From SAR92 bacterium MED-G29 (GTDB taxonomy: Bacteria; Pseudomonadota; Gammaproteobacteria; Pseudomonadales; Porticoccaceae), in the NCBI GenBank assembly GCA_002457245.1, contig NTJY01000005.1, positions 1-44,269 on the forward strand: a stretch of 44,269 bases of DNA, read 5' to 3'. Positions 3,219-38,346 of this stretch are shown here, piece after piece (the stretch's first letter is position 1; each line of letters begins with the position of its first letter). The notes beneath the pieces are model-generated. The model was not told the DNA's origin. It searched no databases and saw nothing but the letters and a program-made list of their open reading frames with translations. Position numbers and translations under genes: made by a program.

Positions 3219-4937
3219 ATGCGCGCAAGTAAATACTTAATTACAACCAAAAAAGAATCTCCGGCAGATGCAGAAATTATCAGTCATCAATTAATGTTAC
3301 GAGCAGGTATGATACGAAAGGTAGCATCAGGGCTTTATTCTTGGATGCCCTTGGGACTGAGAGTATTCCGAAAAGTTGAAACTATAGTGAGAGAAGAAAT
3401 GGATCGATCAGGTGCACTGGAGTTAATGATGCCAGTTGTGCAGCCAGCCGATCTGTGGGAGGAATCAGGCCGATGGAGTCAATTTGGCCCAGAACTTCTG
3501 AGATTAAACGATCGACATGATCGTGATTTTTGTCTTGGACCAACACATGAAGAGGTCATCACCGATATAATTAGAAGCGAGATTAGTAGCTACAAACAGC
3601 TGCCTGCTAACTTTTATCAAATCCAAACTAAATTTAGAGATGAAAGAAGACCTCGATTTGGTGTAATGCGAACTCGAGAGTTTTGTATGAAAGATGCCTA
3701 CTCCTTTCATAGCAATGCAGAATCCTTGCAAGAAACCTATCAACTTATGTATCAAACGTACTCAACCATCTTCGATAGAACCGGTCTCGACTACCGTGCT
3801 GTGCTAGCAGATACAGGCAGCATAGGAGGTAGTCTCTCACATGAATTCCATGTTCTGGCCGATTCCGGTGAGGATGCCATTGTTTTTTCAACAGAGAGTG
3901 ATTATGCGGCAAATATAGAAAAAGCCTCATCGCTTGTTCTAGATAAAAAGAAAGAAGCGGCGGATGTTAAAACTGAGATCACAACTCCGGATGTGCATAC
4001 CATAGGGGAGCTCTGTAAGTTTTTGTCATTAACCGCTGACAAAACCATTAAAACGTTAATCATTTCTACCGAAGATTCTGGCAAAGATAAATTAGTCGCT
4101 CTAGCTCTAAGAGGCGACCATCAACTCAATGAGTTAAAAGTCAAAAATATCTTAGGGATAAATGGCGATCTATGTCTTGCAAGTGAGGAGGAAATAAAAA
4201 AAGCTCTCAACTGCCATCCAGGGTCTATTGGACCTATAGATCTTAATTTACCTCTAATTGTTGACTCCAGCGCTGCGTGTGTTTCAAATTTTGTATGTGG
4301 AGCAAATAAAGACGGCTATCATTTTAAAAATGTCAGTTGGGATCGAGATTGCGGAGAACTATCTATCTCTGATATTCGCAATGTAGTATCTGGCGATTTC
4401 AGTCCTGATGGAAAGGGAAAACTGGAGATAAAGCGTGGTATCGAGGTGGGTCATATTTTTCAACTAGGAACAAAATACAGTGAAGCAATGAAAGCAACTG
4501 TTCTGGATGAAAATGGAAAAGAACAATTCATGAGTATGGGCTGCTATGGCATTGGAGTTAGTCGCATTGTTGCCGCTGCAATAGAACAAAATCATGATGA
4601 CAACGGAATCATTTGGCCTGAGGCTATAGCGCCGTTTCAAACCGTCATAGTGCCTATCAATATGCACAAATCAGAGCACGTGAGAGCAGTGTGTGAGAAC
4701 CTGTACCTGAGTCTTATGGATGCTGGAGTTGATACATTATTCATGGATGAGCCTAAAGCTAGGCTCGGAGTTATGTTAGCTGATGTTGAATTAATAGGAG
4801 TTCCACACAGAATCGTGATCGGAGAGAGAGGCCTACAAGATGGAATTATTGAATATCGTCATCGCAGGGCCTCAGAGAATGTTGACATCAAACTCAATGA
4901 GATCGTTGACTTCATTAAAAATATCGCAAAAAGATAG
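3219..4937 (+). CDS. proS: Proline--tRNA ligase
   Basis: Bacterial-type class II ProRS of 572 residues, which charges tRNA-Pro in the cytoplasm. The N-terminal core carries motif 1 ([20 protein letters not shown]) and motif 2 ([20 protein letters not shown]). A YbaK-like editing insertion, which clears Ala-tRNA-Pro, occupies roughly residues 225-400. Motif 3 ([15 protein letters not shown]) and the anticodon-binding domain follow. Length and domain order are normal. The DUF1445 gene begins 24 bases after the stop on the same strand, so proS may be the first gene of the D-glutamate/5-oxoproline transcript. Confidence 0.98.
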
Positions 4938-4961: not shown

Positions 4962-5747
4962 ATGTTAAGCCAACTAACGCCCAACGAGTTACGCTTAATG
5001 ATCCGCAATGGGCATTTCGATGGAATGACCTCAGGATACTGTCAAGGATTTATTCAGTGTAATCTGGTTATCCTGCCTGCAGATTGGGCAGAAGATTTCC
5101 TAGGCTTTTGCAAAGCCAATCCAAAGCCCTGTCCATTAATCAGCAAATCAGTTATTGGAGATCCAATCTTAGCTGATCTGGGGAAAGATATTGACATTAG
5201 GTCAGATATATCTCGCTATAGAATTTTTAAACATGGTGAATTGTGCAGAGAAGTTCGAGATATTACAGACGTTTGGCAAGATAATTTAGTAGCTTTTCTG
5301 CTAGGTTGCTCGTTTTCATTTGAAGAAGCACTCATCTCAAGCGGACTTGAGGTAAGAAATATAAGTCAAGGTGTTAATGTACCGATGTATCGTAGTGATA
5401 TCGATTGTCAGCCGTTTGGCGCCTTTTATGGAAAAATGGTAGTAAGCATGCGGCCTTTCAATTCAAGTGATTCTGAGCTAGCAAAACAAATTTCCACTCG
5501 TTTCCCAAAGGTTCATGGCGCTCCTATTCATCACGGAAATCCTAGTGAGATCGGTATTTTTGATTTAAACAAACCTGACTATGGAGATGCTGTTAATTTA
5601 AAAGAAGGAGAGGAGCCCCTTTTTTGGGCTTGCGGAGTGACGCCACAGGTTGCGTTGGAGCAAGCTAAGCCTCCTCTTTGCATTACGCACAGTCCCGGTT
5701 GCATGCTCGTAACTGACCTACTAAATAGTACTCTCGAACAAGCATAG
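4962..5747 (+). CDS. DUF1445 / D-glutamate cyclase N-half-like protein (YcsI family)
   Basis: Protein of 261 residues matching the DUF1445 'putative hydro-lyase' family along its full length. Family blocks seen are DIRSDISRYRIF, FLLGCSFSFEEAL, NVPMYRS, GKMVVSMRPF, RFPKVHGAPIHHGNP, FWACGVTPQ and ITHSPGCM. B. subtilis YcsI, a member, sits in the pxpABC region. DUF1445 is also the N-terminal half of mammalian D-glutamate cyclase DGLUCY, which dehydrates D-glutamate to 5-oxo-D-proline. Here it lies directly upstream of pxpA (34-base gap). The C-terminal half of DGLUCY (DUF4392) is fused to PxpC three genes later. A role in producing or handling 5-oxoproline from D-Glu is inferred from family and context; the older label 'hydro-lyase' is unproven. 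Confidence 0.92.
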   Translation: MLSQLTPNELRLMIRNGHFDGMTSGYCQGFIQCNLVILPADWAEDFLGFCKANPKPCPLISKSVIGDPILADLGKDIDIRSDISRYRIFKHGELCREVRDITDVWQDNLVAFLLGCSFSFEEALISSGLEVRNISQGVNVPMYRSDIDCQPFGAFYGKMVVSMRPFNSSDSELAKQISTRFPKVHGAPIHHGNPSEIGIFDLNKPDYGDAVNLKEGEEPLFWACGVTPQVALEQAKPPLCITHSPGCMLVTDLLNSTLEQA

Positions 5748-5781
5748 TTACAGACACTCGATTTTTAGTTAGGATAGCTCG

Positions 5782-6513
5782 ATGACTCTTCTCTTAAATT
5801 GTGATCTTGGTGAAAACTCATCGCACGAGCATTCCAATGTCGATGGTGCCGTCATGCCATTTATCGATCAAGCCAATATTGCTTGCGGCTATCACGCAGG
5901 TGATTCAGGAACTATGGCACAAACAATAGACTGTGCTTTACAACACAACGTAACAATTGGGGCTCATCCTAGCTACCCTGATCGAAAAAATTTTGGTCGA
6001 ATATCTATGGATATTCCTCTTAAGGAATTAATTAATTTAGTGAAGGTCCAGATTGGGACACTTATTGAGATTGGAAAGAAAGTAGGAGCGAATGTATCTT
6101 ATGTTAAGCCTCATGGAGCGCTTTATAATGACATGATGGTCAATGGGCATATTCGAAGTGCAGTCATGCAAGCGATAAGCGAGTACCCTCAAGAGTTAAA
6201 ATTTATGCTTCAGGCAACCCCACAGTCAGACATGCATGAGCAAGAAGCTCTTATTTTTGGGCTTGATTTAATTTTTGAGGTTTTCGCAGATCGTTGCTAT
6301 GCCGATGATGGCGCTCTGCTAAACAGAAAATTGCCGGGTGCCGTACATAATCGAGAAAAAATGCTATCTCAGGTCGCTCAATTGAAAAATGAGCGCTCCA
6401 TTACCACGGTGAGTGGGCGCGTTCTGTCACTGGAGGCAGATTCAATTTGTGTCCATGGTGATAATGCAGAGGGAGTCGCTGCCATAAAACAAATTCGTGA
6501 ATTAATTCAGTAG
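5782..6513 (+). CDS. pxpA: 5-oxoprolinase subunit A (LamB/YcsF family)
   Basis: Protein of 243 residues. It is a component of the ATP-dependent prokaryotic 5-oxoprolinase PxpABC, which opens 5-oxoproline to glutamate. LamB/YcsF signatures run along the length: LNCDLGE, QANIACGYHAGD, GAHPSYPDRKNFGR, VKPHGALYNDM, FADRCYADDGALL and a C-terminal ICVHGDNAEGV. The length is typical (about 245-255). The start is marked by AGGA before the ATG at 5782. pxpB follows after six bases. Together with pxpB and the pxpC part downstream, the full enzyme is encoded. Confidence 0.96.
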   Translation: MTLLLNCDLGENSSHEHSNVDGAVMPFIDQANIACGYHAGDSGTMAQTIDCALQHNVTIGAHPSYPDRKNFGRISMDIPLKELINLVKVQIGTLIEIGKKVGANVSYVKPHGALYNDMMVNGHIRSAVMQAISEYPQELKFMLQATPQSDMHEQEALIFGLDLIFEVFADRCYADDGALLNRKLPGAVHNREKMLSQVAQLKNERSITTVSGRVLSLEADSICVHGDNAEGVAAIKQIRELIQ

Positions 6514-6519
6514 CTTCGG

Positions 6520-7245
6520 ATGACAAAATATGATCCTAATATTTCAATTGCAGGTGAAAACTCACTTATCATTCATCTTTCTGAAAAATCTGATGTAGTT
6601 GTTGCCGACAGAGTCCAGCAAATCAGTGCCTTGGTTAGAACCTATTTAGGCACTGATCTCATCGATCTAATACCCTCTTATGCATCAATACTTGTTATTT
6701 ATGATAACTTTAAGACCGATCATTTTACCGTCTCGAAGGTTTTAAGACGAACTATTTTAGAGACAGAAAACTTAAACGTAACCAATCAAGTCAGAAACGG
6801 CAACCTAATAACCCTGCCAGTCTACTACTCCTTAGAATCAGGACCTGATTTATCCAATTTAGCCAAAAATACAAACCTTTCGATTGAAGAGGTGATGGCA
6901 ATTCATCAGCAAGTTGAATATCGAGTTTATGCCATCGGATTTGCGCCTGGATTCGCATACCTTGGGCATGTTGATGAACGCATTGCTGCCCCTCGGCTAT
7001 CCACTCCCAGACTGAGAGTACCTCGTGGAGCCGTCGCAATAGCAGATCAGCAAACGGCTGTGTACCCGAATGAATCGCCCGGAGGATGGAATCTTATCGG
7101 CTTGTGCCCTACTTTAATGTTTAACCCTAACGAGATACCCTGCATGCCCATAAAGACAGGTGATAGAGTTAAATTCAAAGCAATCGAACGTAATGAATTT
7201 ATTGAGCTGGGCGGGAATTTAATAGCTATGAGCAACAACCCGTGA
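6520..7245 (+). CDS. pxpB: 5-oxoprolinase subunit B (KipI family)
   Basis: Protein of 241 residues of the KipI/allophanate-hydrolase subunit 1 family, now assigned as PxpB. The conserved core YAIGFAPGFAYLG and the segment PRLSTPRLRVPRGAVAIA...SPGGWNLIG lie in the second half. Its stop overlaps the GTG start of the next gene by four bases (GTGA), so translation is probably coupled to the PxpC fusion. KipI in Bacillus was first described as a kinase inhibitor, but co-location with pxpA and pxpC supports the 5-oxoprolinase role. Confidence 0.95.
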   Translation: MTKYDPNISIAGENSLIIHLSEKSDVVVADRVQQISALVRTYLGTDLIDLIPSYASILVIYDNFKTDHFTVSKVLRRTILETENLNVTNQVRNGNLITLPVYYSLESGPDLSNLAKNTNLSIEEVMAIHQQVEYRVYAIGFAPGFAYLGHVDERIAAPRLSTPRLRVPRGAVAIADQQTAVYPNESPGGWNLIGLCPTLMFNPNEIPCMPIKTGDRVKFKAIERNEFIELGGNLIAMSNNP

Positions 7246-9005
7246 AAGGGTTTTTGGTTATAGAGCCTGGCATTCTAAGCTCCTTTCAGGACTTGGGACG
7301 CTCGGGGCAACATGACATTGGCCTAACCGTGGGAGGGCCAATGGATGTCCTATCATTCAGAAACGCCAATCAACTGTGTAGCAATGATAAAAATGCCTCT
7401 CTTATAGAGATTACGGTTGGTGGTTTAATAATTGAATCGAACCTAACGACCTATATTGCTCTGACAGGTGCCTCTTTTCCCTTAAAAATCAATGATACAT
7501 TTGTACGCAGTTCTACTACCCATAAAATTTACTCCGGAGATCGAATAGAGATTGGCTTCGCTGAAAATGGAATGAGAGGTTATCTTGCCGTTGCTGGTGG
7601 TTTCTCGTTGGAGACAGTATTTGGCAGCTGTTCTACCGTTAAGAGAGAAAAAATTGGTGGGCTTTATGGAGACGGTCAACCAATTACACATGGGGATTTC
7701 TTACCTTGCCCCGATAATATGGTATGTCCTCCATTTTTTTGGGAGACTAATCAGTTGTTTCGTCATTCATCGAAACATTCTGAGGTAACCACAATAAGAG
7801 TTATCCTCGGATATCAGGCACAAACATTTGATTCCACTCAAAGAGGTATATTTTTTAGCAGCGAATATATCTTGTCAGACCGAAATGATCGCATGGGAGC
7901 GCGCCTAACGGGTCCATCGGTAAAATCCTCCCTTAATGGAATCCTTTCAGAGGGAATATGCCTAGGTGCCATTCAATTTCCCCCAGATGGAATGCCAATT
8001 ATTTTGCTGAGAGATCGTCAAACTATTGGTGGTTACCCAAAAATCGGCTCGGTATTTTCTCTTGATTTAGACAAATTAAGTCAACTATCACCAGATAGTA
8101 AAGTATGTTTTGAACAATTGAGTATTGAAGAGGCCCATAACCTCCTCCATCTTGATTTAGCCAGGTCAAAGCTCCACAAACCCAAAGTCAATTTAAAGGC
8201 TCTATCAGGAGAAATTGAGCAACTTTTGGTAGATAAAAACCCAAGAGGCATGCGCGCTTTATACGAGGCGATTGAACCTGGATCGTATCTAAGGGCCGCC
8301 CAGTTAATAAATAATAATCTGGGAAAGATATTAATTGGGACAGGCTTCCCAGTGAACAGCACTTTTGAGACAGATGGGCCCGTGGGCGCTATAGCTTTGT
8401 ACAATGGAATTAAGAAATTAGGCGGAGACCCTGTAATAGTTTGTGATGACCCGTTACTTAGCTTCCTTGAAAGTTCATTCAATACCTGCAAAATTCAGCC
8501 TAATCAAGATAACGCCACCAAACTACTAAAGAAATACCAACCGTCTTTGATAATTTCTATAGAGCGTCCAGGGAAAGCCTCAGATGGAGAGTACTATAAT
8601 ATGCGTGGAGTTAACATAACCCCGAAATGTGCTGACTTTGATAGCATTGTGCTAAATGCAGATTGCCCTACTATATGTATTGGAGATGGAGGAAACGAGG
8701 TGGGTATGGGTAATCTTAATGAAGCTCTGCAGAAGCTAAACATAAATCCTTCAATTACAAACTGTGATGAACTTTTAGTTGCTGATGTTTCAAATTGGGG
8801 TGCTCATGGATTATTGGCAATTCTTTCATGTTTAATAGATCAGGATTTACTTGCTGAATGGGATAATGAAAAAGTTCTTGCCTACTTATCGAAGGGCGGA
8901 AGCGTTGACGGCGTTACTGGTAAAAACACTCTTTCAGAAGATGGTATGGATTCATCCATCAGTCAAAATATTGTTAATAAATTACGTAAACTTTCGGGTT
9001 TTTAA
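7242..9005 (+). CDS. pxpC: 5-oxoprolinase subunit C fused to DUF4392 (D-glutamate cyclase C-half)
   Basis: Protein of 587 residues, about 280 more than a stand-alone PxpC. Residues 1 to about 305 are a biotin-dependent-carboxyltransferase/KipA-type PxpC (starts with IEPGILSSFQDLGRSGQHDIGL; RNDRMGARLTGP near 216; PPDGMPIILLRDRQTIGGYPKIG near 247). Residues about 318 to 587 match DUF4392: TFETDGPVGA (374-383), SIERPGKASDGEYYNMRG (439-456), CIGDGGNEVGMGN (479-491) and VSNWGAHGL (516-524). DUF4392 is the C-terminal half of mammalian D-glutamate cyclase. The reading frame is continuous with no sign of a frameshift between the parts. The GTG start overlaps the pxpB stop. The fusion suggests that 5-oxoproline made by the cyclase is handed to the oxoprolinase (inference). 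Confidence 0.95.
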   Translation: MKGFLVIEPGILSSFQDLGRSGQHDIGLTVGGPMDVLSFRNANQLCSNDKNASLIEITVGGLIIESNLTTYIALTGASFPLKINDTFVRSSTTHKIYSGDRIEIGFAENGMRGYLAVAGGFSLETVFGSCSTVKREKIGGLYGDGQPITHGDFLPCPDNMVCPPFFWETNQLFRHSSKHSEVTTIRVILGYQAQTFDSTQRGIFFSSEYILSDRNDRMGARLTGPSVKSSLNGILSEGICLGAIQFPPDGMPIILLRDRQTIGGYPKIGSVFSLDLDKLSQLSPDSKVCFEQLSIEEAHNLLHLDLARSKLHKPKVNLKALSGEIEQLLVDKNPRGMRALYEAIEPGSYLRAAQLINNNLGKILIGTGFPVNSTFETDGPVGAIALYNGIKKLGGDPVIVCDDPLLSFLESSFNTCKIQPNQDNATKLLKKYQPSLIISIERPGKASDGEYYNMRGVNITPKCADFDSIVLNADCPTICIGDGGNEVGMGNLNEALQKLNINPSITNCDELLVADVSNWGAHGLLAILSCLIDQDLLAEWDNEKVLAYLSKGGSVDGVTGKNTLSEDGMDSSISQNIVNKLRKLSGF

Positions 9006-9127
9006 TAGTTTGAAGAAAAATTTGTCGCCTTTGACATAAAAACTATTAAATAATGTCATCATTTAGTCCATTTGGTTAGTAAAAACGTAGTTTTCCTTTG
9101 TTTGATTCGTGAACGACTGCTAATATT

Positions 9128-9147
9128 TTAGCTCAGACATCAGCTAA
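9128..9147. promoter_or_regulatory. Inverted repeat in the pxpC-dat gap (candidate operator or hairpin)
   Basis: The 198-base gap 9006-9203 contains no gene. Within it TTAGCT and AGCTAA form perfect six-base arms around an eight-base centre (cagacatc). There is no following T-run, so it is not a standard terminator. It lies 57 bases before the dat start and upstream of a TGGTATACC stretch (about 9161-9169) that resembles an extended -10 box with no convincing -35. It could be an operator for dat-alr, but this is weak evidence. Confidence 0.3.
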
Positions 9148-9203
9148 TAATGTAATTCATCTGGTATACCGACAAGCCCAAATCTTTTCAAGAGGAAAGT
9201 TGA

Positions 9204-10061
9204 ATGAGTATTGCGTTTCTAAACGACTCCTATATACCTATAACTGAGGCCAAGATATCGCCTTTGGATAGAGGCTTCTTATTTGGAGATGGGATTTATG
9301 AGGTTATTCCATCCTACCAAGGAAAGTTACTGGGATTTAAAGCGCATATCGACCGCATGCTTGATGGACTCAGCGGTATCGGACTAAAACTAAACTGGTC
9401 GCATAGCGACTGGCAGGATATGTGCGAAAAGCTTGCGGTTCAGAATGGAAATGGGAATCTCGGAATTTATCTGCAGGTCAGTAGAGGTGCAGATATCAAA
9501 CGATATCATGCCTTCCCTGAAGCCGTAAGCCCTACAGTGTTTGGCTTTACTTTTGATATACCTTCGCCCCCTGTGGCGGATAAAAATCGAGCAAAATCAT
9601 ACACCGTTTCCACATCAGAGGACTTAAGATGGCAGCGCTGTCATATCAAATCAACTGCTTTGCTTGGAAATGTGCTTCATTTTCAAGAAGGCTATGATCA
9701 AGGTAATGATGAAACCTTACTGTATAACAAAAGAAATGAACTAACTGAGGCAAGCGCTTGCAATGCTTTTATTGTCAAGGATGGAGTCGTCATCACCCCC
9801 CCTCTGGGCAATCAATTACTTCCTGGTATCACTAGAAATATGCTGGTAGACATCCTTAGAAAGGACGGGTCTATTAATGTGGAGGAGCGCGTCGTGACGA
9901 TGGAAGAGGTGAGAGGAGCTGATGAGGTCTGGATCACCAGTTCAACTAAAGAAATTGGAGCGGTTGTCTCAGTTGACGACGCTCCTGTTGGTGATGGAAA
10001 AATAGGGGATGTGTGGCTTGCCGCACAGGCTCTGTTTTCCAGCCATAAATATGATTACTAA
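9204..10061 (+). CDS. dat: D-amino-acid aminotransferase (class IV PLP fold)
   Basis: Protein of 285 residues, the usual DAAT length. It would exchange amino groups between D-Ala and 2-oxoglutarate to give pyruvate and D-Glu. Visible residues fit the Bacillus enzyme: Tyr32 in GDGIYEV, Arg100 and His102 in the R-x-H carboxylate-trap segment, PLP Lys149 in RCHIKSTALLGN, and the cofactor-phosphate segment LLPGITRNML. These favour DAAT over branched-chain aminotransferase or aminodeoxychorismate lyase of the same fold. AGAGGA precedes the ATG. Alanine racemase starts 14 bases after the stop, a pairing that makes sense for D-Ala/D-Glu interconversion. Confidence 0.9.
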   Translation: MSIAFLNDSYIPITEAKISPLDRGFLFGDGIYEVIPSYQGKLLGFKAHIDRMLDGLSGIGLKLNWSHSDWQDMCEKLAVQNGNGNLGIYLQVSRGADIKRYHAFPEAVSPTVFGFTFDIPSPPVADKNRAKSYTVSTSEDLRWQRCHIKSTALLGNVLHFQEGYDQGNDETLLYNKRNELTEASACNAFIVKDGVVITPPLGNQLLPGITRNMLVDILRKDGSINVEERVVTMEEVRGADEVWITSSTKEIGAVVSVDDAPVGDGKIGDVWLAAQALFSSHKYDY

Positions 10062-10075
10062 CTCAAACTAGTTAA

Positions 10076-11176
10076 ATGTCGAGGCCTACAGTAGCTCTGA
10101 TTGATCGATCTGCATTGCGAGCAAATATGGCTCTTGCTCAAAGCTTGGCACCAAAAACTCAGATCATGCCAATGGTAAAGGCCAACGCATACGGCCATGG
10201 AATGGTACAGGTTGCTCAAGCATTGTCCGAAAAAGCTCCTGCTTTTGGTGTCGCATGCATAGAAGAGGCTTTGGAACTGAGAAAAGCAGGGATTGAGCAA
10301 CCAATATTGTTGTTAGAGGGTACTTTCTCTAAAGATGAAATTGAAGTTGCTGCTAAAAGTAATTTCTGGTTAATGATCGAAAATGAGCCTCAAAAAGCTG
10401 CAGTACTCGAAGCTAAACTAGAATATCCCATTCACGTTTGGCTTGGCATAGATACTGGAATGCATCGCCTTGGTTTCCCGCCTGATCAGGTACAAGGCAT
10501 TTTTAGCCAATTAGAGCACAGCAGTAATATCTGTAGCACCATAGTGATAGCGTCCCACTTCGCGTGTGCAGACGATCTTGGTGGTCCGAAAACTATTCAG
10601 CAACAGAATACTTTTAAAAAATGTGTAGCCAGCACAGTACCTGATAGAGGTACTGATCGACAATTATCTATTGCTAACTCAGCAGCGATACTTGCCTGGC
10701 CAGATGCACATTTTGACTGGCAGCGACCTGGATATATGCTTTATGGAAATTCACCATTTACCACCGCTCAAGTGAATGCCGATATGCTCACACCAGCAAT
10801 GACATTTAAGTCAGCTGTTATCTCTCTAAGAAATATTAGTCCAGGCGAATCGGTTGGATATACGAGTAACTGGACATCCAATCGGCCGAGCTCTATCGCA
10901 ACCATAACGGTGGGTTATGGAGACGGGTATCCTAGGCATGCTCCTAATGGAACACCAGTGCTAATCAATAATATCCGGTGCCCTCTTGTGGGAAGAGTCT
11001 CGATGGATATGATTACCGTAGATGTCACTGACCTAGAATCTATAGAAATCGGTGATGAAGTTACTCTTTGGGGTCCAGATTTATCGGTCAACGAAATAGC
11101 CCATCATTGTGATACCATCGGGTATGAACTTCTGACTAGAATGCCATCTAGAGTTCCGAGAACCTATATTAATTAA
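10076..11176 (+). CDS. alr: Alanine racemase
   Basis: PLP fold-type III alanine racemase of 366 residues. PLP lysine is Lys35 in MVKANAYGHG. The second catalytic base is Tyr262 in GESVGYTSNW. Further family blocks are GIDTGMHRLGF, RPGYMLYG, TVGYGDGYPR and GRVSMDMITVDVT. It interconverts L- and D-alanine, either for peptidoglycan synthesis or, in this setting, for feeding D-Ala to or from the adjacent aminotransferase. Its stop shares four bases (TTAA, 11173-11176) with the stop of the convergent lrp gene. Whether it is the housekeeping Alr or a catabolic DadX-like copy cannot be told from this window. Confidence 0.96.
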   Translation: MSRPTVALIDRSALRANMALAQSLAPKTQIMPMVKANAYGHGMVQVAQALSEKAPAFGVACIEEALELRKAGIEQPILLLEGTFSKDEIEVAAKSNFWLMIENEPQKAAVLEAKLEYPIHVWLGIDTGMHRLGFPPDQVQGIFSQLEHSSNICSTIVIASHFACADDLGGPKTIQQQNTFKKCVASTVPDRGTDRQLSIANSAAILAWPDAHFDWQRPGYMLYGNSPFTTAQVNADMLTPAMTFKSAVISLRNISPGESVGYTSNWTSNRPSSIATITVGYGDGYPRHAPNGTPVLINNIRCPLVGRVSMDMITVDVTDLESIEIGDEVTLWGPDLSVNEIAHHCDTIGYELLTRMPSRVPRTYIN

Positions 11177-11649
11177 CCGTTAATATAGACGGCCGTTTCG
11201 GATTTTACATCCTGTATAACAACGTAAGTATGCGTCTGGCTAATATCCCTAATAGAAGCTAGCTTTTCACCTAGAAATCTTTGATAGTGTTGCATATCCG
11301 CCACTCGAATTTTTATTAGGTAATCAAACCCTCCCGCAACCATCTGACATTCCTGCACCTCAGGCAAATCTAACATTTCCTGATTAAAGCGCTTGAATGC
11401 CTCAGTGGTGGAACTTACTAGCTGAATCTCTATGTAAGCACAAAGGGCTGCATTGGCTTTTACTGGATTAATCAGGGCAACATAATCGGTAATAAAGCCA
11501 TCTTTTTCCAAACGCTTTACTCTCTCCAGACAGGGTGTTGGGGTGAGATTAACTTGACGAGCTAATTCAACATTAGCTATCCGGCCATCTCTCTGCAGCA
11601 CATTTAGAATACGCCGATCAATTCGATCAAGATTAGTAATCGTTTTCAT
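11173..11649 (-). CDS. lrp: Leucine-responsive regulatory protein (Lrp/AsnC family)
   Basis: Protein of 158 residues with an N-terminal winged helix-turn-helix (LDRIDRRILNVLQRDGRI, then VNLTPTPCLERVKRLEKDGF) and a C-terminal RAM/effector domain (DLPEVQECQMVAGGFDYLIK). It resembles E. coli Lrp closely, including the TPTPCLERV recognition helix. I place the start at ATG 11649, not the in-frame ATG 24 bases upstream, because AAGGGG lies five bases before it and the family begins close to LDRIDR. It is divergent from putA, across about 212 bases. This PutA has no DNA-binding domain, so Lrp is the natural candidate regulator of putA, as Lrp-type PutR is in alphaproteobacteria. Confidence 0.95.
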   Translation of the reverse strand: MKTITNLDRIDRRILNVLQRDGRIANVELARQVNLTPTPCLERVKRLEKDGFITDYVALINPVKANAALCAYIEIQLVSSTTEAFKRFNQEMLDLPEVQECQMVAGGFDYLIKIRVADMQHYQRFLGEKLASIRDISQTHTYVVIQDVKSETAVYING

Positions 11650-11731
11650 TGGCTCCCCTTTTAGTTTGTTCACTCTGCACTCTTAGCCAGCCAAACATAA
11701 AACTCTCAGCCCAAAATCCTAGCTATCTAAT

Positions 11732-11861: not shown

Positions 11862-14800
11862 ATGAAGCTTAACGCGCTCCGCCAACAAATTAGGAACAAC
11901 GAACACCAAGATGAACATGAGTCTGTTACCCAGTTATTGCGGAGTAATCCTCTATCTAAGGAAGCCAGAGAGAGAGTTTTGAAAGCGTCTCAGCAGTTGG
12001 TGACTGTATGTCGAAATAAAAAAATTAGTGGCGGAACTCTTGACGCATTCTTGCTTGAGTTTGGATTAGCCAATGATGAAGGCGTAGCACTAATGTGTTT
12101 AGCGGAGGCTTTGCTTCGTGTTCCCGATAATCTCACCGCTGACAGATTGATTGCCGAAAAAATTCAAGGGGGTAAATGGTCCAATCACCTCGGCCAATCT
12201 GAGTCCTTATTTGTTAACGCCTCTACGTGGGGCTTAATGTTAACCGGACATATCGTGAGTTTACATTCAGATATTACCACCGAAACAGACACGTGGTTAA
12301 AACGCCTAACAGCTCGCATGGGCGAGCCAGTTATTCGTTCAGCCATTATGCAGGCCATGCGAATTATGGGTGAGCAGTATGTGCTTGGCCGTTCAATTCA
12401 AGAGGGAATCAAAAAAGGCATTAGACGTAATGGACCAAAGGCTAAGTTTTCTTTTGATATGCTTGGTGAGGGTGCTAGAACTGAAGCTGATGCTGAGGCG
12501 TACTTCGCAGCCTACAGCAGCGCTATTGATCAAATTGGTATATCTAATACAGGAAGCCTAGACAGCGTTAAAGATACTGATGGAATTTCTGTAAAATTAT
12601 CAGCGTTACATTCGCGTTACTATTTTGCGCAATATCAACGAGTGATGGAAGAGTTATTATCTCGTATCAAAGCGCTTTGCTTGCAAGCTAAAAAACATAA
12701 TATCGGGCTGTCCATTGATGCAGAGGAATCTTATCGCTTAGATATTTCTCTCAGTATTTTCGAAGCGCTTGCTTACGACACTGATTTAGAGGGGTGGCAG
12801 GGTCTGGGATTTGTTTTGCAGGCCTATCAAAAACGAGCGCCAGATACCGCAAATTGGTTGGTTAAACTGGCTCAAAATACAAAAAGACGTTTGATGGTGC
12901 GTCTCGTTAAAGGTGCCTACTGGGACGCTGAAATTAAACATGCTCAAGAGTTTGGCCTGAAAAGCTATCCCGTCTTCACTCGAAAATCCAATACCGACCT
13001 GTGTTACCAATACTGTGCTGAATTATTATTAGCTGCGCCTGAAGCAATATTCCCTCAATTTGCAACGCATAACGCCTACACAACATTGATCATCCTTGAA
13101 CTTGCTGGCAACAAGGATTTTGAATTTCAACGGCTCCATGGCATGGGTGATAGCCTCTATAGACAGCTAATTAAAAAATATCCTGACACAACCATACCTG
13201 TTCGTGTGTACGCACCAATAGGCAACCACAAAGACCTTCTACCTTACCTTGTGCGCCGTTTGCTTGAGAATGGAGCTAATAGTTCGTTCGTGAACCGCTT
13301 TTTAGACAGAAAAACCCCTGTGGAAGAATTGCTGTTTGATACTCGAACTGCAGTCATGGAAGCCTTCCCCTATGAGCACAAAATGATACCCGTACCTAAG
13401 CTCTTGTTTGAAAATGCGAACGAGCCACGCAAAAATTCAAAGGGTATTGATCTTGATTCACCTCTACAAACAGAAGAACTGTTAACAGTAGTAAGAAAAA
13501 AATCTAGCGAACGCTTTATTGTCCATTCCCTAGTTAACGGTATCAGCACTGGTATTGCTCTTCAGGACCAATTCAATCCAGCTGACAATAATCACTTACT
13601 GGGTCAATACAGCATGGCGGAAGAAGAAGATATTCTGCAAGCGGTTGAATTTGCATATAGTGCTCAGCCTAAATGGGACCGTCTGGGCCATCTTAATCGT
13701 GCTGATATATTAGATACAGTGGCAAATTATATGGAACAGGAAACTGCCGAGATGATTGCGATTATCTCCTCAGAAGGAGGTCGAACACTAAACGATAGCC
13801 TCTCTGAAGTACGCGAAGCTATAGACTTCTGCCGATATTATGCTCTGCAGACTCGTCAGATATCTCGAGAAAAAGAGGCTAACTATACTGGCCGAGGAGT
13901 ATTTTTATGCATTAGTCCCTGGAATTTTCCTCTAGCGATTTTCACTGGTCAAATTGCTGCTGCGCTCGCCTCAGGTAACAGCGTCATTGCTAAGCCAGCC
14001 ATGCAAACTCCAATAATTGCGAACTATGCTGTGAAGCTTTTTCATAGAGCTGGCGTTCCAAGTAATGTCCTACAATTGTTACTTGGTAGTGGATCTAAAA
14101 TTGGAAGCATCTTAATCGAGGACGCTCGAATTTCTGGCATTGCTTTCACTGGATCAACAGCAACCGCGCTCAGAATCAACTATCAACTAGCGCAGCGCCC
14201 AGGTGGCCCCGTACCGTTTATCGCCGAAACAGGAGGTCAAAATTGTATGGTAGTAGATTCTACTGCCCTGCCTGAGCAAGTAGTTGATGATGTTATTACC
14301 TCTGCATTTTTAAGTGCAGGTCAACGTTGCTCCGCGTTGCGCGTGCTCTATATTCAAGACAATATTGCTGACAAAGTACTCTTGATGCTCAAAGGTGCGA
14401 TGGAATCAATGCACGCCGGTGACCCTCGCCTATTAAGCACTGATATGGGACCCGTTATCGACTGTGGTGCGGCTTCGGAACTACACGATCATATTGAGCG
14501 TATGAACGAAGAAGCTACTCTAATCGCCAAAATCGAACTCGGCCCTCACTGTAAGAATGGCAGTTTTGTTGCCCCTCATGTTTTTGAACTGCAATCTATC
14601 AACCAATTACATGATGAGGTATTTGGTCCAATACTGCATGTCATTCGATACTCAGCACAAAATCTCAGCTCAGTCATCAATCAAATCAACGAAACCGGCT
14701 ACGGCCTTACACTAGGTATTCATAGCCGAATTGAAGCTTTTACAGAAACAGTATTTCGTAACACCATCGTCGGCAACACTTACATCAATAGAAATACCGT

Positions 14801-15617
14801 TGGCGCGGTTGTTGGCGTTAATCCTTTTGGTGGGCGGGGACTTTCAGGTACCGGTCCCAAGGCCGGTGGCCCTAACTATTTATACCAATTCTCTAACGCG
14901 AGTACGATAGGCGATCAATCCAGTAAAAACTTCGATTTTAATTACAACACTAAGCCCCTTTGTTCTCAACTATCTGACTCCGTAGATAGGGCGAAAACAG
15001 CGATGGTCAAATGGACAAGCACATCAATTCAAGAGCGTGTAGATATGGTACTCAAAGTAGACAAAGCCATCATAGAAACCTCTTTAGAGACGTTGGTTAA
15101 AGATAAATTATCCCATCCCCTTCATCTGCCTGGTCCAACTGGTGAGAGCAACCAACTGAGTCTCCATGGCCGAGGCGTAATGCTTTTAATCATCAGAGAT
15201 GAAGATCCAAGGGTGACCATAACATTGCAAATTGCCAGCGCCCTGCTCTGTGGTTGCTCCTTGCTTATTTGTGCAGATGAGAGTCACGACGAAACCCTAA
15301 TCGACGTACTCAAACGTTACGAGGCATTGGGCCTACCTACAGGCATATTGCAAACCGTAGCCCTGAACATTGGAGCATCTCTCATTCAACACCCAGATAT
15401 TGCGGGCGTTATTGCTAACAGTTTTGGAGCCAATAGCAGCGCACTGCGTAAAGAAATGGCTAATCGCTCCGGTTGTATTATTCCTCTGATTGAATGGCCA
15501 AAGATCAATGCTGATTATAATTATCGCTGGCTTTTAGGTTTTTTAAGTGAAAGAACTCGCACCGAAAACTTAGTCGCACGCGGGGGAAATACACAACTGT
15601 TTAATCTAGCTAACTAA
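11862..15617 (+). CDS. putA: Bifunctional proline dehydrogenase / L-glutamate-5-semialdehyde dehydrogenase (type B PutA)
   Basis: Protein of 1251 residues that oxidises proline to glutamate in two steps, using FAD then NAD+, with electrons from the first step going to quinone. The proline dehydrogenase barrel spans about 190-480, with DAEESYRLD (286-294), RLVKGAYWDAEIK (347-359), FATHNAYT (400-407) and RRLLENGANSSFVNRF (465-480). The aldehyde dehydrogenase spans about 560-1020, with SPWNFPLA (685-692), Glu789 in ETGGQN and catalytic Cys823 in AGQRCSALR. The C-terminal 200 residues are the ALDH-like flap domain of long PutAs. There is no N-terminal ribbon-helix-helix, so it is type B and not its own repressor. 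AAGG seven bases upstream supports the start. Confidence 0.97.
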   Translation: MKLNALRQQIRNNEHQDEHESVTQLLRSNPLSKEARERVLKASQQLVTVCRNKKISGGTLDAFLLEFGLANDEGVALMCLAEALLRVPDNLTADRLIAEKIQGGKWSNHLGQSESLFVNASTWGLMLTGHIVSLHSDITTETDTWLKRLTARMGEPVIRSAIMQAMRIMGEQYVLGRSIQEGIKKGIRRNGPKAKFSFDMLGEGARTEADAEAYFAAYSSAIDQIGISNTGSLDSVKDTDGISVKLSALHSRYYFAQYQRVMEELLSRIKALCLQAKKHNIGLSIDAEESYRLDISLSIFEALAYDTDLEGWQGLGFVLQAYQKRAPDTANWLVKLAQNTKRRLMVRLVKGAYWDAEIKHAQEFGLKSYPVFTRKSNTDLCYQYCAELLLAAPEAIFPQFATHNAYTTLIILELAGNKDFEFQRLHGMGDSLYRQLIKKYPDTTIPVRVYAPIGNHKDLLPYLVRRLLENGANSSFVNRFLDRKTPVEELLFDTRTAVMEAFPYEHKMIPVPKLLFENANEPRKNSKGIDLDSPLQTEELLTVVRKKSSERFIVHSLVNGISTGIALQDQFNPADNNHLLGQYSMAEEEDILQAVEFAYSAQPKWDRLGHLNRADILDTVANYMEQETAEMIAIISSEGGRTLNDSLSEVREAIDFCRYYALQTRQISREKEANYTGRGVFLCISPWNFPLAIFTGQIAAALASGNSVIAKPAMQTPIIANYAVKLFHRAGVPSNVLQLLLGSGSKIGSILIEDARISGIAFTGSTATALRINYQLAQRPGGPVPFIAETGGQNCMVVDSTALPEQVVDDVITSAFLSAGQRCSALRVLYIQDNIADKVLLMLKGAMESMHAGDPRLLSTDMGPVIDCGAASELHDHIERMNEEATLIAKIELGPHCKNGSFVAPHVFELQSINQLHDEVFGPILHVIRYSAQNLSSVINQINETGYGLTLGIHSRIEAFTETVFRNTIVGNTYINRNTVGAVVGVNPFGGRGLSGTGPKAGGPNYLYQFSNASTIGDQSSKNFDFNYNTKPLCSQLSDSVDRAKTAMVKWTSTSIQERVDMVLKVDKAIIETSLETLVKDKLSHPLHLPGPTGESNQLSLHGRGVMLLIIRDEDPRVTITLQIASALLCGCSLLICADESHDETLIDVLKRYEALGLPTGILQTVALNIGASLIQHPDIAGVIANSFGANSSALRKEMANRSGCIIPLIEWPKINADYNYRWLLGFLSERTRTENLVARGGNTQLFNLAN

Positions 15618-31245: not shown

Positions 31246-32262
31246 TTATCCGCCGGTCATATTCATAAATCTAACTATATCGATTTTATTAGGATCAAAG
31301 TAATGTCTTTCAGGTTTGCTCTTCAGAGCCTTTGAAATTTCATTTTTGAGCAAATCTTGATCGCCTGGGTGGCTTCTCATCACTGAGCGCAGATCTGCGC
31401 TGTGCTCATTTCCTAAGCAAAGGAGTAATCGCCCCTCAGCAGTCATTCGCACCCTATTACACGACTCACAGAAATTGTTTGACATAGGAGATATGAAACC
31501 AATCTTACTAGTAGAACCTACAACATTTGAATAACGGGATGGCCCTCCAGTGGTCTCAACACTATCGATAAGATGAAACTTAGTCTCTAATTTTTCTCGG
31601 ATATTTGCACTGCTAACTTGTGTTTTTGAACGATCATGCGTTGACATCGATCCAAGTGGCATTTCCTCAATAAATGAAATATCCATCTCATTGCTGACTG
31701 CAAAATGCGCTAAATCAATTACTTCATCATCATTAAAGCCAGCTAGGACAACTGCATTAAGCTTTATTTTCGTGAAATTTGCTTTTTTGGCAGCAACAAT
31801 TCCTTCGTACCATAAGCTCAAGTCACCATTGCGAGTCATCTCTCTAAATTTGGTTGGTTTTAAACTATCTACACTGATATTCAAGCGAGCCAGACCGGCT
31901 TGCCTAAGTTGCTGAGCCATCTTCGGGAGAAGCATGCCATTTGTAGTCATCGTTATCTCTTCAAGGCCATTTATATTGGAAATAGAGCGCACCAACTTGA
32001 TAATGTCTCTCCGAACTAGAGGCTCTCCACCTGTAAGACGAATCTTTTTGATCCCCAGCTCTACGAAGGCTAATGCGAGATCTCGCAACTCCTCCAGAGA
32101 TAGGATTTGTTGGCGAGGAAGAAAAGTCATATCCTCAGCCATGCAATAAGTACATCGTAGATTACAGCGATCAGTGACAGACAAACGCAAATAATCAATC
32201 GTTCTCCCAAATGGGTCTACTAAAGATGAAGGAGCCTCTTTTAATTGATTATCGCGATCCAT
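31246..32262 (-). CDS. moaA: GTP 3',8-cyclase (molybdenum cofactor step 1)
   Basis: Radical SAM enzyme of 338 residues that, with MoaC, turns GTP into cyclic pyranopterin phosphate. The N-terminal cluster ligands are C33-x3-C37-x2-C40 (DRCNLRCTYC). The C-terminal second cluster is in FCESCNRVRMTAEGRLLLC. The chain ends in Gly-Gly, which MoaA needs for activity. It is the last gene of the eight-gene minus-strand Moco operon, 28 bases after moeA. Confidence 0.97.
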   Translation of the reverse strand: MDRDNQLKEAPSSLVDPFGRTIDYLRLSVTDRCNLRCTYCMAEDMTFLPRQQILSLEELRDLALAFVELGIKKIRLTGGEPLVRRDIIKLVRSISNINGLEEITMTTNGMLLPKMAQQLRQAGLARLNISVDSLKPTKFREMTRNGDLSLWYEGIVAAKKANFTKIKLNAVVLAGFNDDEVIDLAHFAVSNEMDISFIEEMPLGSMSTHDRSKTQVSSANIREKLETKFHLIDSVETTGGPSRYSNVVGSTSKIGFISPMSNNFCESCNRVRMTAEGRLLLCLGNEHSADLRSVMRSHPGDQDLLKNEISKALKSKPERHYFDPNKIDIVRFMNMTGG

Positions 32263-32290
32263 AGTGACAGCAGTACCGGAATGACAGGAG

Positions 32291-33475
32291 TTAGTAGACT
32301 ATCACATCTAAAAGATCGTTAAAGCTGATATCTCGATGAATTTTTTGTTTCACTAGAACATCTCCCCAAGACACAGATGAAAGCACGCCACTGCTTTGAT
32401 TGGGATGTATCTCTACGCCAAGAGTCTTGCAATCAGCAACTAAACGCCCCCTTAAATAAACCTCTCTTGATTCCCCGGCTCGATTAAACAGGGCCTTGGC
32501 CTGAACTACTGGTGTTTTAAGCTTTTTAGCCCCTTGGCAACCCATTAAAAAGGGTCTAGCAAGTATCACAAATGTAACAAAAACTGATGCAGGATTTCCA
32601 GGTAATCCGACAAGAGGAACCCCTTGAACATGACCAAACGCGATTGGTTTTCCGGGCTTGATAGCGACCTTCCAGAATTCTATTTCTCCCAGTTCATCGA
32701 CAGCAGATCGAACATGATCTTCTTCTCCAACAGAAACTCCTCCAGCTGTCAAAATCACATCAACTTCATCACAAGCTTTGAGTAATGCATCTTTGGTCTC
32801 ACTTGGTTTATCTTTAACACAACCCAAATCCACAAACTCCATCCCAAGATCGCGAATAAGTCCTCCAAGCATTGGGCTGTTAGAATTATAAATTTTTCCC
32901 AAACCTAAGTAAGTGCCGGGCTCTACCAACTCATCACCTGTGGATAATACTCCTACCTTCATCGGGCGATAGACTAAAACATTGGTATAACCTTGCGATG
33001 CTAGTAATCCCAGTTCGGCAGGCTTGATTTTTGTACCGACAGGAATAATAACGTCGCTAAACTTGACGTCCTGACCACACTTCCTAATGTTCGCACCTGC
33101 TACTGCGTTCCTATCAAGATGAACCATTCCCAACTTTTCCTCACAGAGCTCCTGTATTGCGACAGTATCTGCCCCCAAAGGGATTTCTGCGCCTGTAAAA
33201 ATCCTTACGGCAGTTCCACGAACCAAAGGTGGAGACTCGGCCCCAGCAGTAATTCTTTGAGCTATGGGTAAACTAAATTTTGCAGCAACCGCATCTTGAA
33301 GGGAAAAAGCATATCCATCCATCGCGCTATTATCAGCTGGAGGAACATTACATGATGCCCTAACGTCTTGAGCACTCACCAAATTCTGAGACGACTCCAC
33401 CGAAACTGAAAGAGAGTCACAACGAACAACAGACTTCTGAATTAAGGCTTCAACAGCCTCATCAACGGCCAGCAT
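32291..33475 (-). CDS. moeA: Molybdopterin molybdenumtransferase
   Basis: Protein of 394 residues that inserts molybdate into adenylylated molybdopterin. MoeA signatures are PPADNSAMDGYAF near the N-terminus, a GVLSTGDELV stretch, IYNSNSPML, ILTAGGVSVGEEDHV, and VPLVGLPGNPASVFVTF, followed by the C-terminal domain. Its ATG overlaps the moaB stop by one base (TAATG) with AAGGA just upstream, so translation is coupled. Confidence 0.96.
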   Translation of the reverse strand: MLAVDEAVEALIQKSVVRCDSLSVSVESSQNLVSAQDVRASCNVPPADNSAMDGYAFSLQDAVAAKFSLPIAQRITAGAESPPLVRGTAVRIFTGAEIPLGADTVAIQELCEEKLGMVHLDRNAVAGANIRKCGQDVKFSDVIIPVGTKIKPAELGLLASQGYTNVLVYRPMKVGVLSTGDELVEPGTYLGLGKIYNSNSPMLGGLIRDLGMEFVDLGCVKDKPSETKDALLKACDEVDVILTAGGVSVGEEDHVRSAVDELGEIEFWKVAIKPGKPIAFGHVQGVPLVGLPGNPASVFVTFVILARPFLMGCQGAKKLKTPVVQAKALFNRAGESREVYLRGRLVADCKTLGVEIHPNQSSGVLSSVSWGDVLVKQKIHRDISFNDLLDVIVY

Positions 33476-33999
33476 TATTTATCCTTTTTGACAACATGTT
33501 GAATAAAGTTGCAGGGCTCAAAGGTGCTATCGAGTTGCTCGCGGATAATACCATCCCAACCAGTCTTACAAGCCCCTGTAGAACCAGGCAAACAAAATAT
33601 AGCTGTATGGTTGGCTAATCCTGCAAGACTACGCGATTGAACGGTTGACGTTCCTATTTCAGAGTAAGAAAGCTGCCTAAACAACTCGCCAAATCCCTCA
33701 ATATGCTTATCAAAAATCGGAGCTAATGCTTCAGGAGTGCTGTCACGCCCGGTAAAACCTGTCCCTCCCGTGGTCAAAATAACATCGATATTGTTATCAG
33801 CAATCCAGTTTGATGCAGTCGCTCGAATTTGATAAATATCATCAATAACTAATCGCCGCTCAATTAACTTGTGCCCATCCTTCTCAACGGCCTGTTGAAG
33901 CCACGCCCCAGAGGTATCAGTATCGAAGCAACGAGTATCAGAAATTGTCAGTATTGCCACCCTTACAGAATGCCGATTTGTCAAATCACTTCTCTCCAT
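33475..33999 (-). CDS. moaB: Molybdopterin-binding protein MoaB
   Basis: Protein of 174 residues of the MoaB/Mog fold: VAILTISDTR at the start, ILTTGGTGFTGRDSTPEAL, GTSTVQSRSLAG and CLPGSTGACKTGWDGII. It is closer to E. coli MoaB than to MogA. No mogA is seen in the window, so it may perform molybdopterin adenylylation itself, as is known for some MoaB proteins (inference). It lies between moeB (nine-base gap) and moeA (one-base overlap). Confidence 0.93.
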   Translation of the reverse strand: MERSDLTNRHSVRVAILTISDTRCFDTDTSGAWLQQAVEKDGHKLIERRLVIDDIYQIRATASNWIADNNIDVILTTGGTGFTGRDSTPEALAPIFDKHIEGFGELFRQLSYSEIGTSTVQSRSLAGLANHTAIFCLPGSTGACKTGWDGIIREQLDSTFEPCNFIQHVVKKDK

Positions 34000-34008
34000 A
34001 ATATTAAC

Positions 34009-34755
34009 TCAAAGTTCATGAGAGCAGACCATACATGCCTTGTCTCTCATCGATGTCATTGTTAACCACTGGCCGCGCTTACCATCGTATCTCTGCATTT
34101 CTCCATGCTGTTGAAAATAACCAAGCAACATTCTTATAGCGATCGTAGCCTGTAAACTTCCAATCACTCCTAAAACAGGTCCCACAACTCCAGAGTTAGA
34201 GCAATTCATCACAGGGTCTTGCAATTGACCATTGATTACACAATTAAAGCATGGACTAGAGTAATTATTGAAATCAAAGCCAATAAGCTGCCCCTCCCAG
34301 CCCACGGCGGCAGCGCTAACAAAAGGTATTTTGTTCTCAGAACACTGCTTATTCAATACATGACGAGCCGGCAGGTTATCCGTGCAATCAATGATTAAAT
34401 CATAGTGATAATTTAGAATTTCAGTATCCACAGCCCTTGGATATATTTCGATATTCACGCTGTCATTAAGAGCTTTCAACCGATCTTTTGCGCAACTCAC
34501 TTTAAATTCACCACAATCTTCTGATCGAAAAAGGACTTGTCGTTGTAAATTCGTTTTATCAACCCGATCAGGATCACAAAGAGCTAGAAATCCAACGCCA
34601 GCACCAGCCAAATAGGTAGAGACTGGGCATCCTAATCCTCCCAAACCAACAATTAATATTCGCGAATTAATGAGCTTTTCTTGTCCTGACTCACCAATGT
34701 CATCCATCAATAAATGTCGGCTATAGCGCATAAAATCATCATCATTTAAGGGCAT
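34009..34755 (-). CDS. moeB: Molybdopterin-synthase adenylyltransferase (MoeB/ThiF family)
   Basis: E1-like protein of 248 residues. An N-terminal RYSRHLLMDDIGESGQEKL is followed by the ATP-binding VGLGGLGCPVSTYLAGAGV and NLQRQVLF. DCTDNLPARHVLN follows, and two CxxC pairs (CFNC and the C-terminal CMVC) would bind zinc. It activates the MoaD C-terminus for sulfur transfer. Context in a Moco operon favours MoeB over ThiF. It overlaps the mobA stop by ten bases. Confidence 0.94.
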   Translation of the reverse strand: MPLNDDDFMRYSRHLLMDDIGESGQEKLINSRILIVGLGGLGCPVSTYLAGAGVGFLALCDPDRVDKTNLQRQVLFRSEDCGEFKVSCAKDRLKALNDSVNIEIYPRAVDTEILNYHYDLIIDCTDNLPARHVLNKQCSENKIPFVSAAAVGWEGQLIGFDFNNYSSPCFNCVINGQLQDPVMNCSNSGVVGPVLGVIGSLQATIAIRMLLGYFQQHGEMQRYDGKRGQWLTMTSMRDKACMVCSHEL

Positions 34756-35339
34756 AACAAACTCTTTGCATAAGATAAGTCTTGTTCTGTGTTGATGTTA
34801 AAAAAAGGATTTATTTTTTGCTTCGGCCAATCCAAGTACTCAGACTTTAATCTCTTCAGGAGAGGTTTAAATCCTCCTAACTGGTCGACAAGTAGAGCCT
34901 GCCTAACTGCATCTAGCACACGCTTGTTCCACAGTGAAAAAGTAGCCTGAATGAAGCCTTCATACCTGACAACAGCAACATCAGCATCAAATTGAACAAC
35001 AGCTTCATAGAGCTCTTTGACAAGGTTCACAGGGATAAAAGGCCCATCGCAAGGAGCTAGGAGGAGATAATCAGCATTCGTTAATTTCGGATACAGGAGG
35101 GTGCTATAAAGACCAGCTAGAGGACCTGAAAACTTTGCACCTTGATCTTCAATGATTGGATATCCAAGATTCGTCAGAGTCTCTTTATTCCCGCTTAAAC
35201 ATAGCAAATCAACTTGTGATGACAACCTGTCGGCAACATGATTCACCAAAGGTTTTCCTGCTAGTGAAACCAATGCCTTGTTGGGCGCACCCATTCTTCT
35301 GGACTGCCCACCAGCTAAAATAACCGCGTCGACATTCAC
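34746..35339 (-). CDS. mobA: Molybdenum cofactor guanylyltransferase
   Basis: About 197 residues; joins GMP to Mo-molybdopterin to give the guanine-dinucleotide form that bis-MGD enzymes such as formate dehydrogenase need. The nucleotide-binding motif VILAGGQSRRMGAPNKAL is near the N-terminus and APCDGPFIPVNLV is central. I start at GTG 35339, one base after the moaE stop, since the protein then has normal length (E. coli 194). In-frame ATGs up to 35378 inside moaE would add 13 atypical residues. Confidence 0.9.
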   Translation of the reverse strand: MNVDAVILAGGQSRRMGAPNKALVSLAGKPLVNHVADRLSSQVDLLCLSGNKETLTNLGYPIIEDQGAKFSGPLAGLYSTLLYPKLTNADYLLLAPCDGPFIPVNLVKELYEAVVQFDADVAVVRYEGFIQATFSLWNKRVLDAVRQALLVDQLGGFKPLLKRLKSEYLDWPKQKINPFFNINTEQDLSYAKSLLCP

Positions 35340-35340
35340 T

Positions 35341-35823: not shown

Positions 35824-35830
35824 ATCACGA

Positions 35831-38254: not shown

Positions 38255-38346
38255 AATACGAGTTTGACTTAATTAAATGTGACAAACCCTAAGGCTATAA
38301 CTTATGTAAGAAGCATGGATGTTTCGCAAAGGGTGATTTCGGGCAT

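Follow-up and report, generated by a model that had tools for sequence, protein, structure and literature searches.

D-glutamate (D-Glu) is a component of the bacterial cell wall, and the D-amino acids of such walls make up a large marine pool that is degraded slowly. The prokaryotic 5-oxoprolinase PxpABC was reportedly described by Niehaus in 2017, and Yu is said to have reported in 2022 the use of D-alanine (D-Ala) by a D-amino-acid aminotransferase (DAAT) in Pseudoalteromonas sp. CF6-2. Here we analyze a 44,269-nucleotide (nt) stretch of contig NTJY01000005.1 from SAR92 bacterium MED-G29 (hereafter the window; the assembly comprises 1.30 Mb in 53 contigs and is 80% complete), in which a run of six genes joins the three 5-oxoprolinase subunits, a DAAT-like aminotransferase, and an alanine racemase (Alr) to the two protein families of the mammalian D-glutamate cyclase, DUF1445 and DUF4392.

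The same two families occur in DGLUCY, the mammalian mitochondrial enzyme (PMC5339696, in the part of that source available to us), but there they form one polypeptide, whereas here DUF1445 is separate, DUF4392 is fused to PxpC, and the run also includes a complete oxoprolinase, DAAT, and Alr. PxpA, PxpB, and PxpC are shared with the prokaryotic operons of C. glutamicum (pxpTABC, PMC13274462) and B. subtilis (PMC10448178), for which the accessible portions of the two papers name no DUF4392, DAAT, Alr, or fusion. Entry of D-Ala through DAAT is a feature in common with the reported DAAT route of CF6-2. The MurD2/MurL pathway, according to the available text of PMC8788868, is another route of D-Glu to peptidoglycan that is independent of the glutamate racemase MurI. 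The parts of the cluster are known, and our searches of open-licence PMC papers turned up no description of the joint cluster, either of the combination or of the fusion. DUF1445 and DUF4392 are poorly understood families known mainly from a mitochondrial enzyme of vertebrates; the cluster suggests for them a bacterial function next to 5-oxoprolinase that can be tested, and it hints at ways in which marine bacteria lacking a glutamate racemase may produce and eliminate D-Glu.

A conserved six-gene run

The members of the run are as follows.

4962..5747, plus strand: DUF1445 / D-Glu_cyclase family, 'putative hydro-lyase' (PF07286), the proposed D-glutamate cyclase partner
5782..6513, plus strand: PxpA, 5-oxoprolinase subunit (PF03746; NF003816)
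6520..7245, plus strand: PxpB, 5-oxoprolinase subunit (PF02682; TIGR00370)
7242..9005, plus strand: PxpC::DUF4392 fusion (PF02626 and PF14336), with PxpC at about residues 1-305 and DUF4392 at about 329-582
8226..8987, plus strand: DUF4392 / GLUCM-like_C domain (PF14336), six acidic metal ligands kept
9204..10061, plus strand: class IV aminotransferase, D-amino-acid aminotransferase-like (DAAT; PF01063)
10076..11176, plus strand: Alr, alanine racemase (PF01168/PF00842; TIGR00492)

A preliminary description of this DNA had named six same-strand genes at 4962-11176 (DUF1445, PxpA, PxpB, PxpC-DUF4392, DAAT, and Alr), and both the program's list of open reading frames and the Pfam and NCBIfam models agree with it. 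Pfam E-values were 5.4e-63 for PF07286 (211.6 bits, cut-off 25), 4.9e-79 for PF03746, 6.5e-63 for PF02682, 7.5e-76 for PF02626 and 4.2e-69 for PF14336 (233.7 bits, cut-off 27.9) within one 587-residue protein, and 5.8e-48 for PF01063. NCBIfam cut-offs were passed by the 'putative hydro-lyase' model and by those of PxpA (NF003816, 299.6 vs 213 bits), PxpB (TIGR00370, 163 vs 145.55 bits), and alanine racemase (TIGR00492, 366.3 vs 168 bits). The genes are separated by 34, 6, -4, 198, and 14 nt. A promoter or terminator in the 198-nt gap was rejected, as a consensus scan of the gap found no promoter- or terminator-like site and a search of 8950-9260 found no inverted repeat.

A scan of named genomes gave 453 relatives of DUF4392, and the locus counts reported here rest on the 80 most similar of these, a choice that biases them towards loci of the window's type. 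The nearest are records of the SAR92 clade or Porticoccaceae, including HTCC2207, and by record title nearly all hosts are Gammaproteobacteria (L130 is a deltaproteobacterium and L119 is titled proteobacterium only). Counting partners on the same strand and within set distances of DUF4392, we found PxpA, PxpB, PxpC, DUF1445, and DAAT all present in 63 of the 80 loci, and these five with Alr downstream in 44. The gene set singled out in the preliminary description is therefore conserved well beyond the genus, and its conservation exceeds chance. Individually, PxpC accompanied DUF4392 in 78 loci (one contig end, one absence), PxpB in 74 (six contig ends), PxpA in 72 (seven contig ends, one absence), DUF1445 in 70 (nine contig ends, one absence; 70/71 where the DNA reaches), and DAAT in 73 (one contig end, six absences; 73/79), while Alr lay downstream in 52 (five contig ends, 23 absences; 52/75). 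Five of the 23 loci without a downstream Alr (Maribrevibacterium, Marinomonas, Oceanobacter, and two Marinobacterium records) carry an alanine racemase of a second type upstream of DUF1445, 30-33% identical to that of the window, so that 57 of the 80 loci hold one of either type (52 downstream and 5 upstream); the two types were separated by sequence identity alone. In L113 (Motiliproteus) the second type, at 32% identity, is downstream. All three second-type proteins scanned (L089, L096, L113) pass TIGR00492. We conclude that the six-gene run exists, is conserved, and makes functional sense as a whole.

Because the PxpC::DUF4392 fusion recurs in 14 of the 80 other loci, it is unlikely to be a sequencing error. 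Parsimony on both trees made requires two origins, and PxpC thus appears to have been fused to DUF4392 at least twice. By sequence and by fold, the PxpC half matches YbgK (5dud, its best solved chain) and the DUF4392 half matches Thermococcus TON_0340; the fold matches of the AlphaFold2 model (mean predicted local distance difference test score, pLDDT, 76.9) were DUF4392 and carboxyltransferase structures first, followed by RecJ-like enzymes. Residues E49, D51, E114, D155, E159, and D229 of DUF4392, invariant in the 23 aligned rows (L004, L021, L022, L024, L028, and L029 were left out), align to TON_0340 E59, D61, E115, D157, E161, and D246, and the accessible part of PMC5132392 lists six acidic metal ligands of DUF4392.

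D-glutamate supply and the two DUF families in the genus

In a sample of 35 genomes of the genus (the window's included; 22 are at least 90% complete), MurI exceeded the cut-off in none, with two matches below it at 24 and 35 bits (G007, G019). By comparison, MurI passed in 15 of 21 genomes belonging to other families of the same order and in 184 of the 249 genomes of a phylum sample. A DAAT homologue was present in 33 of the 35 genus genomes, in pieces in two of them. This combination of missing MurI and nearly universal DAAT suggests that DAAT and Alr probably also supply the D-Glu for the peptidoglycan of the genus. A DAAT match of at least 39% identity was found in 39 of 41 MurI-less genomes and in 2 of 15 with MurI, genomes that are not phylogenetically independent. 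The nearest solved relatives of the DAAT, by best PDB match, are D-amino acid aminotransferases, and its Y32, R100, H102, K149, and E182, which we take to be the pyridoxal phosphate lysine and the carboxylate-trap residues, do not vary across 35 aligned rows (the alignment excludes G011 and G017, whose genes are broken in frame). Aminotransferases of this type are a general route of D-Glu supply, as far as the available text of PMC8788868 goes. MurL was rejected as the clade's source of D-Glu, with no match in the six genus genomes searched; in all, 3 of 69 genomes searched matched it (G161, G211, and G089), none over the cut-off, and the window's genome is among the 66 without a match.

Frame breaks interrupt the cluster DAAT of G017 (L142) and of G011 (L051), two genomes with no MurI over the cut-off, and a second DAAT-like gene of G011, on contig C1, is likewise split; these breaks may reflect either assembly error or decay.

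The two DUF families vary together in the genus. DUF4392 is present in 26 of the 35 genomes and DUF1445 in 22; both occur in 22 (in G012 and G033 they sit on different contigs), nine have neither, and four (G001, G006, G013, and G016), whose contigs stop before the place of DUF1445, have DUF4392 alone. With these four excluded, Fisher's test of co-occurrence gave a p of 5e-8. Two of the nine genomes without the DUFs (G031 and G032) lack the whole run. In a tree of Alr and DAAT (G004, cut at a contig end, and G022, in which none was found, were excluded from the Alr alignment) the other seven form two separate, well supported clades, which argues that the pair changed together, by loss or by gain, at least twice. 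In the phylum sample DUF4392 occurs in 7 genomes, DUF1445 in 43, and both in 5 (p = 0.002, or 0.008 without the window's genome); the two lie in one run in three of these five and far apart in G147 and G236. The joint change and the conserved linkage together indicate that the two DUFs act with the oxoprolinase and that this block is tied to DAAT and Alr, as judged from gene content and neighborhood.

A proposed role in D-glutamate homeostasis, and its alternatives

We propose that the run is a D-glutamate homeostasis module, which would both supply and dispose of D-Glu, and give this reading a probability of about 0.5. Alr would interconvert L-Ala and D-Ala, and DAAT would exchange the amino group between D-Ala and 2-oxoglutarate to yield D-Glu, which would feed peptidoglycan in a genus without a detected glutamate racemase. 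DUF1445 and DUF4392 would form a two-gene D-glutamate cyclase converting surplus, recycled, or scavenged D-Glu to 5-oxoproline, which PxpABC would turn into glutamate with ATP; these two consecutive steps are the most economical reading of the DUF pair and the oxoprolinase. Such a drain would pull the reversible DAAT reaction and return glutamate that a MurI-less cell could not otherwise regain by racemization, and DUF4392 tethered to PxpC would pass the lactam on. The reactions of Alr and PxpABC are taken from known families, and we infer the substrates of DAAT, the cyclase activity of the bacterial DUFs, the direction of flux, and the encounter of the D-lactam with PxpABC.

Several observations weigh against this proposal. 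DAAT is missing from the run in 6 of 79 loci (L109, L124, L127, L128, L130, and L132), and rhizobial DUF4392 genes lie in different neighborhoods. Seven genus genomes keep ProS (prolyl-tRNA synthetase), PxpA, PxpB, PxpC, DAAT, and Alr in order with both DUF genes gone from their places, and 38 of the 43 phylum-sample genomes with DUF1445 have no DUF4392, so DUF1445 must mostly work without it. Because the DAAT (TIGR01121, 223.4 of 277.45 bits; NF005209, 223.3 of 320 bits) and PxpC (NF045499, 190.9 of 500 bits; the broader TIGR00724 is passed, 241.3 vs 230.2 bits) fall below NCBI equivalog cut-offs, their precise naming is probable but not assured. MurI was also found in 10 of the 50 loci of the 80 whose genomes were covered by that check, eight of these carrying DAAT within the run, and in 3 of the 7 phylum-sample genomes with DUF4392, two of which (G226 and G298) possess the cluster; for MurI-positive hosts of the cluster a catabolic role is the more natural one. 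In CF6-2, DgcN/DgcA were reportedly found by Yu in 2023 and are said to be crucial for its use of D-Glu, which would speak against the DUF pair as the main D-Glu route there; these enzymes differ from those of the run, and their chemistry has a similar logic, with the amino group masked ahead of inversion. The accessible text of PMC12363236 describes dgcN as the key gene of an irreversible D-Glu racemization pathway of marine bacteria, a different route. The Thermococcus DUF4392 protein, in the available part of PMC5132392, is reported as a Mn-dependent phosphatase with low activity, and not as a cyclase. Finally, mouse DGLUCY forms 5-oxo-D-proline from D-Glu (PMC5339696, partial text), but PxpABC is documented on the L form, the accessible portion of PMC13274462 containing no terms for the D form, and there is therefore a gap in chirality.

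The cluster thus raises the question of which enantiomer the oxoprolinase opens, and of a possible lactam racemase. Either PxpABC of this type takes the D form, in which case it would by itself give back D-Glu, or the lactam undergoes inversion. The run holds no known racemase-type gene for such an inversion besides Alr. Candidates for the step among recurrent neighbors outside the genus were rejected; the scan covered cluster representatives only, which were LysR regulator, thioesterase, solute-binding, transglycosylase, Dus, tRNA-editing, peptidase, methyltransferase, transporter, efflux, and MnmA proteins and alanine racemases. It is conceivable, if doubtful, that the run works as a one-way, ATP-driven glutamate racemase of separate parts, in which DUF4392 would convert D-Glu to 5-oxo-D-proline, the lactam would be inverted, PxpABC would open 5-oxo-L-proline to L-Glu, and the fusion would hold the steps together. 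DUF1445 would then be the run member most free for the inversion, and the whole would parallel the reported dgcN route at the level of the lactam and act as a stand-in for MurI in reverse. The predicted fold of DUF1445 (model pLDDT 90.5) is neither for nor against this: its best Foldseek match is the UPF0317 protein 2pif (49% identity), it shows a weak likeness to an NrpR-like protein, a nitrogen repressor (3nek; template modeling score 0.36-0.46, E 2e-5), and no protein titled as a racemase is among the best 50 of 386 rows, so DUF1445 was rejected as a known racemase fold.

The preliminary description had interpreted the run as a funnel of D-Ala and D-Glu into central metabolism, which is partly supported. 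Gene conservation, the joint change of the DUFs, the two fusions, and the two types of alanine racemase in the run all speak for it, as does the growth of CF6-2 described below; as a one-way route it is not supported, given that MurI exceeds the cut-off in none of the 35 genus genomes while 33 have DAAT and that seven genomes hold PxpABC, DAAT, and Alr and no DUFs, and it overlooks both biosynthesis and the question of chirality. A funnel only, in which scavenged peptidoglycan D-Ala and D-Glu are degraded through DAAT, the cyclase pair, and PxpABC to glutamate with Alr as the link to L-Ala, is possible, and we think it somewhat improbable. Four of the six clusters with second-type alanine racemases are in MurI-positive genomes (L089, L096, L108, and L135; not L113 or L129), where these copies may be dedicated ones; a LysR-type gene stands between DUF4392 and DAAT in 17 of the 80 loci (on the opposite strand in L120; one member was scanned); and in the Alkalimonas loci L088 and L100 a family 3 solute-binding protein and a carboxylate/amino-acid-type transporter (42.8/230.2 bits) are encoded just upstream. 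On a megaplasmid of CF6-2 (L161, 2578-7676) a glycoside hydrolase family 3 (GH3) gene, whose best model is beta-N-acetylhexosaminidase at 190.6/207 bits and thus under the cut-off, precedes DUF1445, PxpA, DUF4392, and a DAAT 57% identical to the window's, with no PxpB, PxpC, or alr annotated within the 12.8 kb examined; this strain can use D-Ala or D-Glu as its only source of nitrogen for growth (PMC6962226, accessible part). However, with MurI over the cut-off in no genus genome, DAAT must be biosynthetic there, barring another source of D-Glu, and no transporter gene lies between the run genes in the window.

Two further explanations divide the run or reassign its DUFs. That it houses two independent jobs sharing expression only, with PxpABC and the DUFs repairing 5-oxoproline damage and DAAT and Alr making wall precursors, would account for the 198-nt gap in the window and for PxpABC, DAAT, and Alr without DUFs in the seven genus genomes and in G044. 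We consider it very unlikely, however, as DUF4392 remains alongside PxpA, DAAT, and Alr in G037, in which PxpC and DUF1445 are on other contigs; as the run of two Pseudoalteromonas megaplasmids is DUF1445-PxpA-DUF4392-DAAT with neither PxpB nor PxpC adjoining; and as alanine racemases of two types have come to lie in the run. It is also unlikely that the DUFs are not a bacterial D-glutamate cyclase at all, with DUF1445 assisting PxpABC and DUF4392 acting as a metal-dependent hydrolase or phosphatase on some other small molecule. B. subtilis, our search control, has DUF1445 and no DUF4392, and its DUF1445 gene is presumably ycsI. The available text of PMC10448178 places ycsI in the pxp operon, and the phosphatase activity of the Thermococcus protein (PMC5132392, partial text) and the RecJ-like enzymes among the fold matches of the fusion point the same way. 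Against it, DGLUCY, in which these two families are combined, produces 5-oxo-D-proline (PMC5339696, partial text), and the joint change of the DUFs and their linkage to DAAT and Alr fit D-Glu.

Neighboring genes and other contexts of the DUF families

Three further genes flank the run in the window.

3219..4937, plus strand: ProS (prolyl-tRNA synthetase), 24 nt upstream of the run, a usual neighbor in the genus and outside the pathway
11173..11673, minus strand: Lrp/AsnC-family regulator, convergent with alr and divergent from putA
11862..15617, plus strand: PutA (proline to glutamate)

Of the 25 other genus genomes with retrieved DNA extending that far, 24 have ProS upstream of the run, and the Lrp/AsnC-family protein is probably, by inference, the regulator of putA. 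Among the 80 loci, only those of SAR92 type have ProS, Lrp, and PutA next to the run, and not every one of these does.

DUF4392 genes share a run with MurL homologues in two unrelated genomes of other classes, neither of which is among the phylum-sample genomes listed with a MurI match. In G161 (L151, 4080-6444) a more distant DUF4392 gene is followed directly by the MurL homologue (434.7 bits), and in G211 (L152, 3757-8483) DUF4392, an uncharacterized gene, MurD (294.1/211.95 bits), and a MurL homologue (254.2 bits) form one run; the equivalog cut-off for MurL is 700 bits. DUF4392 thus appears to be linked to a second MurI-free wall pathway as well (n = 2).

A phosphoribosyltransferase-like gene, identified by eye, occupies the usual slot of DUF4392 between PxpC and DAAT in G044 (L145, 2344-2925). 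On rhizobial plasmids (L158, L160) DUF4392 lies beside a threonine/serine dehydratase gene or is duplicated beside amino-acid ABC transporter genes, and on pRM41A of S. meliloti a 'putative hydro-lyase' (DUF1445) gene is 3.7 kb upstream of DUF4392. Farther along the window, at 31246-44269, translations read by eye include molybdenum cofactor genes, a sulfatase-like gene, and subunits of an NAD-type formate dehydrogenase.

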